Assembly (NCBI RefSeq): GCF_001425235.1
Contig: NZ_LMEA01000008.1
Coordinates: 434,001-498,000 of the forward strand
Length of the DNA: 64,000 nucleotides
Direction of reading: 5' to 3'
From: Devosia sp. Root413D1
GTDB taxonomy: Bacteria; Pseudomonadota; Alphaproteobacteria; Rhizobiales; Devosiaceae
This document shows, piece after piece, positions 24,581 through 27,687 of the stretch; the stretch's first letter is position 1, and the number at the start of each line of letters is the position of its first letter. The notes under the pieces are model-generated. The model saw only the letters and a list, made by a program, of their open reading frames with translations. It was not told the DNA's origin and ran no database searches. Made by a program: the position numbers and the translations under genes.

Positions 24581-25282
24581 ATGATTTTTCAGGATTTTGT
24601 CACACGGATGATGGATCCAAGTCATCTGCTGACTCACGTGCCGTATGCTCTACTTGTCATCTCTATGCTGATGAACGACATGGGCTGGCTTCGTGCTATT
24701 GCCATTGCTGCAGGCATAATACGTATTATCAATCGCGCCTTCTTTGAGATCGACCCGATCATCGTGTTCTGGGAAGTGATCTTCGTCGCGGTGAATGTCG
24801 TTCAACTGTTGATCCTCTGGTACTACGCCAGGCGGCATCGGTTTTCCGAGGACGAGCAGCGTTTCGCCTCGATCATGCCCGCCAGCATCGATCGACGAAC
24901 CGTCCGTCGCTTGCTGCGCCTCTCCAGGCTTCGCCATGCCCACGAGGGCCAGAAGCTGACTGAAGAGGGCAGGGCCGTCAGCGAGCTGGTGTTCATCGCC
25001 GATGGCGTAATGCAGATCGAGCAAGCCGGACGAATCGTCGCCGTGTGTGGACCGGGGGATTTCGTCGGCGAGATGAGCTTTGTCACCGGCGCCCCGGCTT
25101 CGGCCACTGCCATCGCTGCCAAGCCGGTGCGCTACCTCGCTTTCGAACAGACGAGGTTGCGCGCCGCTGTCGAGGCCGACAGTGATCTTCGCCAGGCGCT
25201 CGACGCCAGTCTCAACCACAACCTCGTCGGCAAACTGGCAAAGGCCAACGTCGCTCGTCCTGAGCAGGTCGCTGCAGCCTAG
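24581..25282 (+). CDS. Popeye-domain membrane protein with cNMP-like domain (first of pair)
   Basis: 233 residues from ATG 24581 (AGAGG upstream). Two or three membrane helices (about 20-80) end in FFEIDPIIVFWEVIFVAVNV and the basic exit YYARRHRFSEDE, which closely resembles the transmembrane end of animal Popeye (POPDC) proteins. A cyclic-nucleotide-binding-like beta roll follows. Its phosphate-binding cassette region GDFVGEMSFVTGAPASATA (160-176) lacks the conserved Arg of CAP/PKA. LNHNLVGKLAKAN resembles the Popeye C-terminal helix. Bacterial Popeye relatives are known but unstudied. A paralogue follows 75 bases later. Confidence 0.75.
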   Translation: MIFQDFVTRMMDPSHLLTHVPYALLVISMLMNDMGWLRAIAIAAGIIRIINRAFFEIDPIIVFWEVIFVAVNVVQLLILWYYARRHRFSEDEQRFASIMPASIDRRTVRRLLRLSRLRHAHEGQKLTEEGRAVSELVFIADGVMQIEQAGRIVAVCGPGDFVGEMSFVTGAPASATAIAAKPVRYLAFEQTRLRAAVEADSDLRQALDASLNHNLVGKLAKANVARPEQVAAA

Positions 25283-25357
25283 AACATCGAGCCCCTTGTT
25301 TGTGACAGTGGGAGCGGGCTAGGCCCTCGGTCTCAGTGTTTGCTTTTGCGGTGCACC

Positions 25358-26062
25358 ATGTCGGGCCTGGTTGATCAGTTGTTCGTGGGTTTCACCAACC
25401 CGGTCATCCTGTTTGGGCACTTCACCTACTTCCTGCTGATCGTCTCGATGCTGATGCGGCGCATGGTGTGGCTGAGAAGTTTTGCCGTAGCGTCGGGCGT
25501 CGCCAAGATCGTCTACCGGGCGTTCTTCGTGTTCGATCCGGTGAGTGTCCTGTGGGAAACCGTGTTCGTGCTGGTGAACATCGTCCAGCTCCTGCTGATC
25601 TGGTACTACGAGCGCCACCACCGCTTCACCGACGAGCATCGCCATTTCGTCGACAGCATGCCGCCCAGCGTGGAGCGCCGCGCCCTGAAGCGCCTGCTGG
25701 CCTTTGCCACAGTGCGTGAGGTCCCAGCCGACGAAGTGCTGGTGCGCGAAGGGGAGGTGGTCAAGGACCTGCTCTATGTCGCCAGTGGCGTCGCGCGGAT
25801 CGAGAGCGCCGGCCGGATCATCGCAGTGTGCGGGCCGGGCGATTATCTCGGTGAGATGAGCTTCCTCAGCGGCGAGCCGGCAACCGCCACCGTAGTGGCA
25901 TCCAGGCCGATGCGCGTGCTGGCCTTCGACCAGCAACGGCTGCACGTCGCGGTGGCCTCCGACGCCGCCATCCATCGCGCCATGGAAGCCGGATTGAACC
26001 GCAACCTCGTTGGCAAGCTGGTGCGCGCCAACACGACCAGGGTGGCACCCCTCTCGGCATAG
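25358..26062 (+). CDS. Popeye-domain membrane protein with cNMP-like domain (second of pair)
   Basis: 234 residues from ATG 25358. Same layout as its neighbour: N-terminal helices, [33 protein letters not shown], then a beta roll with [19 protein letters not shown], again without the cassette Arg, and the terminal helix [13 protein letters not shown]. The two are clearly paralogous over their whole length. Probably an inner-membrane sensor that oligomerises with its neighbour; ligand unknown. It lies 56 bases ahead of guaA. Confidence 0.75.
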
Positions 26063-26118: not shown

Positions 26119-27687
26119 ATGACAGACATCGCCGCCGCCCCCGCCGAGTCCATTCTCATCATCGATTTCGGGTCCCAGGTGACCCAGCTGATCGCGCGCC
26201 GTCTGCGCGAGACTGGCGTCTACTGCGAAATCCATCCGTTCCAGAGCGCCGCCGAGGCCTTCGCCCGGCTGCAGCCGCAGGGCGTGATCTTTTCGGGCGG
26301 TCCTGCCTCGGTGACCGACGAGGGCAGCCCCCGCGCGCCGCAGGAAGTGTTCGATTCGGGCGTGCCGATCCTCGCCATCTGCTATGGCCAGCAGACCCTG
26401 GCGCTGCAGCAGGGCGGCAAGGTCGAAGGCGGCCACGCCCGCGAGTTCGGCCGCGCCGATGTCGAGATCAAGGAGCAGAGCCCGCTGTTCGATGGCTTCT
26501 GGAAAGTCGGCGGCCGTTACCCGGTGTGGATGAGCCACGGCGACCGCGTCACCGAGCTGCCCGAGGGCTTTACCGTCATCGGCACCTCAGAGAACGCGCC
26601 GTTCGCCATCGCGGTCAACGAGCGCAAGCGCTACTACACCACCATGTTCCACCCCGAGGTGGTGCACACTCCCGATGGCGGCAAGCTCCTCCAATCCTTC
26701 GTGCACAACATCGTCGGGCTCAAGTCCGACTGGACCATGTCGGCCTATCGCCAGCGCGCTGTCGACAAGATCCGCGCCCAGGTCGGCAAGGGCAGGGTGA
26801 TCTGCGCGCTCTCGGGCGGCGTCGACAGCTCGGTCGCGGCGATCCTTATCCATGAAGCGATCGGCGACCAGCTGACCTGCGTGTTCGTCGATCACGGCCT
26901 GATGCGGATGAACGAGGCCGACGAAGTGGTCTCGATGTTCCGCGACCACTACAATATCCCGCTCGTTCATGTTGACGCCGCCGACAAGTTCATCGGTGCG
27001 CTCGAGGGCGAGGCGGACCCCGAGACCAAGCGCAAGACCATCGGCCGGCTGTTCATCGAAGTGTTCGAGGAAGAGGCCAAGAAGCTCGGCGGTGCGCAGT
27101 TCCTGGCGCAGGGCACGCTCTACCCCGATGTGATCGAGAGCGTCAGCTTCTCGGGCGGCCCGTCGGTCACCATCAAGTCGCACCACAATGTCGGCGGCCT
27201 GCCTGATCGTATGAACATGCAACTGGTCGAGCCGCTGCGGGAGCTGTTCAAGGACGAAGTCCGGGCGCTCGGCCGCGAACTCGGCTTGCCCGACCGCTTC
27301 GTCGGCCGCCACCCGTTCCCGGGCCCCGGCCTCGCCATCCGCCTGCCGGGCGGGGTAACCCGCGACAAGCTCGACATCCTCCGCCGCGCCGACGCCATCT
27401 ATCTTGACGAGATCAGGAAGGCCGGGCTCTACGACAAGATCTGGCAGGCCTTCGCCGTGCTGCTGCCGGTGCAGACCGTCGGCGTGATGGGCGATGGCCG
27501 CACCTACGAGTTCGTGTGCGCGCTGCGCGCCGTCACCTCGGTCGACGGCATGACCGCGGATTTCTTCCCCTACGACATGAACTTCCTCGGCCGCGCCGCC
27601 ACCCGTATCATCAACGAAGTGCGCGGCATCAACCGGGTGGTCTACGACGTGACGTCAAAGCCGCCCGGCACCATCGAGTGGGAGTGA
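26119..27687 (+). CDS. guaA: GMP synthase (glutamine-hydrolysing)
   Basis: Converts XMP to GMP with ATP and glutamine. 522 residues. The glutaminase domain has Cys88 in AICYGQQ and the His in MFHPEVVHT; the ATP-pyrophosphatase loop is SGGVDSS (about residue 234); the C-terminal dimerisation domain ends in the invariant [12 protein letters not shown] 26119 is chosen over an upstream in-frame start because the family begins close to ILIIDFGSQ. The last codons overlap a GTG for the following fucosidase. Confidence 0.97.

Follow-up and report, generated by a model that had tools for sequence, protein, structure and literature searches.

Two adjacent genes on the forward strand of the window (the whole 64,000-nucleotide stretch of Devosia DNA analyzed here) raise the question of whether bacteria carry relatives of the animal Popeye (POPDC) proteins, and what such proteins could do in a bacterial membrane. 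The original prediction had read the genes, at positions 24581–26062, as tandem Popeye-domain proteins with altered nucleotide-binding cassettes. In the available text of two reviews, the Popeye domain is called unique to POPDC proteins and the origin of POPDC genes is put at the base of the animals, with some protozoan members (PMC5872366, PMC6562197). Four POPDC reviews, in the portions available, give CAP/CRP as the nearest bacterial relative and make no mention there of bacterial membrane homologs, and the open-access literature searched yielded no account of Popeye relatives in bacteria.

Both open reading frames lie where they had been predicted. The PopA gene (24581–25282, forward strand) encodes 233 amino acids and the PopB gene (25358–26062, forward strand) encodes 234, and the two products are paralogs with 49% identity over 221 residues in a gap-free pairwise alignment (E 2e-86). 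The closest named relative is found on a Devosia insulae contig (95% identity), with further relatives in Devosia metagenome bins. Since relatives with conserved neighbors occur in other genera and families, PopA and PopB are not chance open reading frames. A promoter and terminator scan gave no signal above chance.

AlphaFold models of PopA and PopB (mean pLDDT of 89.5 and 88.2, from input alignments of 50 and 57 sequences, respectively) have the same order of elements from N to C terminus: a short helix, three membrane-length helices (predicted membrane helices at residues 13–30, 34–56 and 59–85 in PopA; 15–32, 36–56 and 61–87 in PopB), a linker helix, a beta roll with a phosphate-cassette helix that forms the cyclic-nucleotide-binding (CNB) domain, and finally a long helix at the C terminus (201–232 in PopA; 203–229 in PopB). 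The models thus agree with the claim that the domain order is that of animal POPDC proteins. What had been described as an exit segment (FFEIDPIIVFWEVIFVAVN in the PopA translation, with a 19-residue counterpart in PopB) corresponds in the models to the loop between helices 2 and 3 together with helix 3, and the basic stretch (RRHRF / HHRF in the pair) comes after helix 3. Across 51 relatives, the mean charge is positive in loop 1–2 and negative in loop 2–3 and at the N terminus, while the stretch after helix 3 is mixed, with no net positive charge (mean K+R of 2.9 versus D+E of 3.6). At the N terminus and in both short loops, the charges are compatible with an N-out/C-in topology, the topology reported for POPDC. 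Taken together, the AlphaFold helices and this charge pattern predict for PopA and PopB the Popeye layout, in which a CNB-like domain on the cytoplasmic side comes after three membrane helices.

The CNB domain itself is well defined. PF00027 (cNMP binding) scores 51.6 bits in PopA and 64.5 bits in PopB, above its cut-off of 27.5 in both, and residues 88–234 of the PopB model match CNB domains (Foldseek, VIA-align), including CAP (1g6n; Z 16.7, rmsd 2.5, 125 aligned residues) and MtbCRP (3i54; Z 17.3), which share the fold of a CNB domain with a C-helix. No solved POPDC structure was among the best structure-search rows, which were mostly CNB domains and barely probed the membrane part. Unlike CAP/CRP, PopA and PopB have a membrane anchor in front of the CNB domain, no helix-turn-helix behind it, and no phosphate-binding Arg. 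MloK1-type cyclic-nucleotide-gated channels also place membrane helices before a CNB domain, and the CNB sequence matches Mll3241; PopA and PopB, however, have three helices only and no match to an ion-channel family. Pfam searches of PopA and PopB returned neither an ion-channel family nor a helix-turn-helix, and from sequence and models the two proteins appear to carry no DNA-binding or catalytic domain.

The HMM evidence for the Popeye domain is divided. PF04831 (Popeye) scores 21.8 bits in PopA and 25.2 bits in PopB, below the 28.1-bit gathering cut-off in both. The pair is thus connected with POPDC by way of its relatives and of profiles, and is itself not Popeye in the strict sense. The cut-off is exceeded by six of 20 bacterial proteins scored singly (L104, 48.5 bits; L100, 46.4; L099, 42.7; L101, 41.3; L109, 39.4; L107, 35.9), and therefore such bacterial members may already be listed under Popeye in databases. 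Matches to PF04831 at E<=0.01 were found in 42 of the 57 aligned sequences, and a six-frame search of the phylum sample placed 1 of 398 genomes above the cut-off. Among 14 control genomes, six match at E<=1, none at E<=0.001 and none above the cut-off.

That the pair falls below the Popeye cut-off, with far higher scores for PF00027, could mean that an ordinary bacterial CNB domain has been set on an unrelated three-helix anchor and that POPDC shares the CNB fold only. We compared profiles of the bacterial family with human POPDC1 and POPDC2 (sequences not taken from a database record, scoring 157 and 171 bits with Pfam Popeye) in a background of 4,743 sequences, made up of POPDC1, POPDC2, 400 shuffled POPDC sequences and the 4,341 ORFs of the window and loci, among them family members. 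The membrane part alone, as a profile of 57 bacterial rows, matches POPDC1 with 36.9 bits and an E value of 7.5e-10, where the best clearly unrelated ORF reaches E 3.4 and the best shuffle E 9.3; POPDC2 is barely matched (E 0.002). A profile of 26 rows (Devosia-type and near kin) still matches POPDC1 (E 2.6e-5 for the membrane part and 2.1e-11 for the whole length; POPDC2: 0.92 and 1.9e-7), its "best non-family" hit being an ORF (o2298_L073) from G140, the genome of L106, that we read as a broken piece of a family member. Among the shuffles listed across these POPDC profile tests, the best had E 0.6 or worse.

Over the whole length, the 57-row profile gives 72.2 bits for POPDC1 (E 1.1e-20) and 42.8 bits for POPDC2. 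About 11 ORFs with CNB domains of other proteins nevertheless outscore POPDC1 (73 to 116 bits), so the whole-length score is not specific and the kinship claim rests on the membrane part. A profile of the CNB part only gives POPDC1 an E value of 0.0033, and one of the C-terminal helix region alone matches neither POPDC1 nor POPDC2 among the 4,743 sequences. Comparison of the bacterial family with POPDC by whole-length hhalign gives a probability of 98.7% over 214 columns.

Some of the CNB proteins related to PopA and PopB carry a different membrane module, and such fusions evidently occur: five of the 10 relatives scanned match NF047864 (CBU_0592). These proteins are similar in size and have the same type of CNB domain, with Glu and without Arg. 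We observed the Arg-free CNB type joined to this other module in L103, L105, L135 (5712–6401), L140, L141 (5882–6580) and L143 (4944–5660); the NF047864 scan covered all of these except L135, and all five match. Convergent pairs of unlike paralogs, one Popeye-like and one CBU_0592-like CNB protein, were also seen in three genomes of one other family (G489 with L135, G464 with L141, G518 with L143). The whole-length profile of the CBU_0592-type rows still finds POPDC1 with E 6.1e-5, as would be expected if the CNB fold alone were shared. The membrane profile of the six CBU_0592-type rows, however, matches neither POPDC1 nor POPDC2.

Together with the six relatives above the Popeye cut-off and the whole-length hhalign result, the membrane-part matches make a chance likeness improbable in our judgment. 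We conclude from these comparisons that the family shares descent with POPDC, a conclusion that has good support from POPDC1 and weak support from POPDC2. Two positions are invariant in all 57 aligned sequences, R40 and K220: the Lys, at the end of the C-terminal helix, stands opposite a Lys in human POPDC1 and POPDC2, and the Arg, after the first membrane helix, stands opposite an Arg in POPDC1, whereas POPDC2 has Phe there. POPDC proteins also have an extra C-terminal region, according to the available text of PMC6562197, whereas the PopA and PopB chains stop near the end of the C-terminal helix in the AlphaFold models. Of the claim that these are Popeye-domain proteins, what holds is kinship, in both the membrane-part and the whole-length comparisons (most strongly with POPDC1), and the presence of relatives above the cut-off, and what does not hold is a Popeye match above the cut-off in the pair.

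The ligand pocket differs from those of both CAP and POPDC. In PopA, the phosphate-binding cassette GEMSFVTGAPASATA (25067–25111, forward strand) retains Glu and has Ala in the Arg position, and in PopB (25850–25894, forward strand) Glu166 is retained and Ala175 takes the Arg position. The cassette motif first put forward is visible in both translations, with the PopB version slightly unlike the motif as written, and the predicted absence of the phosphate-binding Arg from both is borne out. Among the 57 aligned sequences, the Glu position holds Glu in 55 and Asp in two, the phosphate-Arg position holds Ala in 49, Ser in six and Thr in two, and the residue after the former Arg is Thr in 29, Ser in 24, Asn in two and Ala in two. 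With Arg in 0 of 57, the canonical Glu and Arg cassette of the CAP and PKA type is absent from the family. As a control, the same profile was used to collect 32 CNB stretches from other proteins, a set that is biased to similar domains and includes two-domain proteins; here the position is Arg in 22, Ala in three, His in three, Thr in two, Pro in one and Asn in one. Loss of the Arg is therefore not unique to the bacterial Popeye-like family (10 of 32 controls are without it), yet in that family it is complete. Elsewhere in the Devosia genome, four further CNB proteins (L006, L007, L008 and L010) keep the Glu and have His or Asn in the Arg position (PHSATV, PNSATV and ADHSANV types).

The altered cassette is not POPDC-like. 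POPDC has DSPE and FQVT motifs, with DSPEF and FQVT of POPDC1 aligning at this place, whereas all 57 bacterial sequences lack both and have instead a GE or GD core followed by ATAT/SATA-like stretches, with Ala for Arg in PopA and PopB. The bacterial pocket thus stands half-way, with the Arg of CAP gone and the Glu that POPDC has lost retained.

The absence of the phosphate Arg from every aligned sequence could also result from a pocket that is no longer used, in which case the CNB domain would bind no small ligand, would serve dimerization or protein binding, and the pair would be structural. Drift would be expected in such a pocket, whereas the Glu position is Glu or Asp throughout and the residue after the former Arg is Ser or Thr in 53 of 57; moreover, proteins of this fold that lack both the Arg and the Glu bind ligands other than cyclic nucleotides, according to the available text of PMC5872366. 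We consider a dead pocket unlikely for these reasons. The Devosia genome has four class III cyclase matches above cut-off, and this organism may therefore make a cyclic nucleotide.

Trypanosomatid PKA regulatory subunits, which are soluble kinase subunits, offer a different model for a pocket of this type. Their CNB domains are also without the phosphate Arg and bind nucleosides, with an extra Glu that binds the ribose hydroxyls (PMC10959531, in the text available). The replacement of the Arg in both PopA and PopB, next to a GMP synthase gene, could accordingly point to a nucleoside sensor of this kind that reports the purine supply. That gene, guaA (26119–27687, forward strand), starts 56 bases past the PopB stop and flanks PopA/PopB together with a divergent acyltransferase gene; it lies in the same stretch in 13 of the 21 loci compared with the genes of the window. 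The position of the extra Glu (that of PKA Ala202) is never Glu in the 57 sequences and is instead Ser in 34, Thr in 11, Ala in nine and Gly in three, and with the nucleoside-specific Glu missing from all of them the pocket is not that of the trypanosomatid proteins.

The neighborhood offers little more. In eight of nine queried genomes without Popeye-like genes (G006, G009, G016, G018, G020, G022, G024 and G028), rsmB and guaA are together on one contig within 6 kb, and in the ninth (G007) they are on different contigs. Conversely, the Popeye-like gene is away from guaA in G045, G047 and G050, and on a separate contig from the rsmB-guaA block in the drafts G008 and G017. Since the rsmB-guaA block exists without Popeye-like genes, nearness to guaA is mostly inherited gene order and is weak evidence of function. 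A functional link to guaA is weakened accordingly, and a nucleoside sensor of the trypanosomatid kind is, in our estimate, very unlikely. Outside the Hyphomicrobiales block, no recurrent neighbors were found, apart from a few unnamed ones common to some loci.

Other genes at these loci deserve mention. Fourteen of the 21 loci contain a match to the TspO family gene of the window (PF03073; 22082–22561), which sits between rsmB and guaA wherever a locus has both genes. In G017, a CNB gene with the canonical Arg (L054, 5824–6345) lies directly upstream of guaA, with the Popeye-like gene on another contig. A large protein in G005 (L060, 1300–3153), by eye a glutaminase with an Arg-bearing CNB domain, adjoins the Popeye-like gene.

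To place the pair among its relatives, we searched near and distant genomes. With PopB as the query (E<=1e-15), 20 of 61 near genomes match, including 14 of 19 of the genus of the window. A search with a 30-row alignment matches 29 of 240 genomes of the class, and the membrane part is spanned in only eight of those 29 (match start within the first 31 profile positions; rows read by eye). In the phylum sample, 19 of 398 genomes match. Besides that of the window, one belongs to its order, 14 to its class and three to other classes; of these three, two match only across the CNB part, and G372 (L140) carries the CBU_0592 membrane module. Among the genomes sampled from this phylum, full Popeye-type proteins were thus seen only in the class of the window. 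Plasmid relatives were not found for PopB or L144; there was one weak plasmid match for L104 (a "hypothetical protein"), and three weak, partial ones for L136.

Copy number bears on whether the two paralogs work as a unit. At least two copies are present in seven of the 21 loci (three copies in one), and the gene is single in 14; the seven include G012, where a copy cut by the contig end is counted, and some of the 21 stretches are contig-cut. The A type occurs alone in G014 and G015, and the B type alone in G001 and G011. Paired paralogs therefore recur, but the pair is neither obligatory nor a conserved unit. In trees, the A group has modest support of 83/54 (84/81 once G004a is included), with no single supported clade for the B-type rows; a wider quick tree, with SH-aLRT only, gives 98 for an 8-row A group and 97 for an 11-row B group. 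The tandem pair of G019, outside the genus of the window, is its own younger duplication (support 100/99). In the wider tree, which is unrooted, POPDC forms a very long branch that attaches close to the L107/L109 and L099 groups. As for the row sets, A1 includes the contig-cut L048; A2 excludes L048, L106 (broken frame at the N end), the second copy of G012 and L038 (the last two both contig-cut), and contains near-duplicates (L145/L146, and L047 beside the window rows); A3 excludes L146, a near-duplicate, as well as the six CBU_0592-like rows.

The suggestion that the pair forms a mixed sensor had drawn on a tandem arrangement of POPDC2 and POPDC3 in animals. The animal tandem is in fact POPDC1/POPDC3, and POPDC2 is on another chromosome (PMC4918794, PMC8706714, in the text available). 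As a general rule an obligatory A-B pair is rejected by the single-copy loci and the A-only and B-only genomes, and an obligatory mixed dimer is disfavored because of the genomes with A alone or B alone. The two proteins may still form a mixed A-B sensor.

Our preferred reading, to which we assign a probability of roughly 0.6, is that PopA and PopB represent a bacterial branch of the Popeye superfamily, inner-membrane CNB proteins that act as ligand-switched membrane adaptors. Computation supplies the predicted architecture, the sequence kinship with POPDC (membrane part and whole length), the retained Glu and the missing Arg; we infer the ligand, the dimer state and the partner, and draw the mechanism from homology and anatomy. 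In CAP and POPDC, the C-terminal helix is the dimer interface. In the CNB domain, Glu166 and the Ser/Thr beside the former Arg would hold a small ligand, and binding would shift the C-terminal helix and thereby change the way in which homodimers or mixed dimers contact a further membrane protein. One candidate ligand is cAMP, bound without the Arg in the manner reported for POPDC; another is a purine-like compound that is uncharged or carries a different charge. With no output domain of their own, PopA and PopB would most likely be adaptors for membrane partners, comparable to POPDC1, which is reported to act with the TREK-1 channel as a ligand-switched membrane adaptor (PMC5872366, in the text available).

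Placing a branch with this layout in the Alphaproteobacteria would shift the origin of POPDC away from the base of the animals. Tentatively, and with the balance still against it, animal POPDC might descend from this alphaproteobacterial family, through the mitochondrial ancestor or a later transfer, in which case the cassette with Glu kept and Arg lost would be an intermediate to the POPDC pocket. If true, Arg-free ligand sensing by membrane CNB proteins would have begun in bacteria, and the paired paralogs would have arisen there independently. PopA and PopB may also serve as a simple model of pockets that work without the usual Arg. As small, confidently predicted proteins, they would give a handle on whether cyclic nucleotides bind to a CNB pocket that has no phosphate Arg, and on the way in which a CNB domain lacking an output module can signal across a membrane complex.
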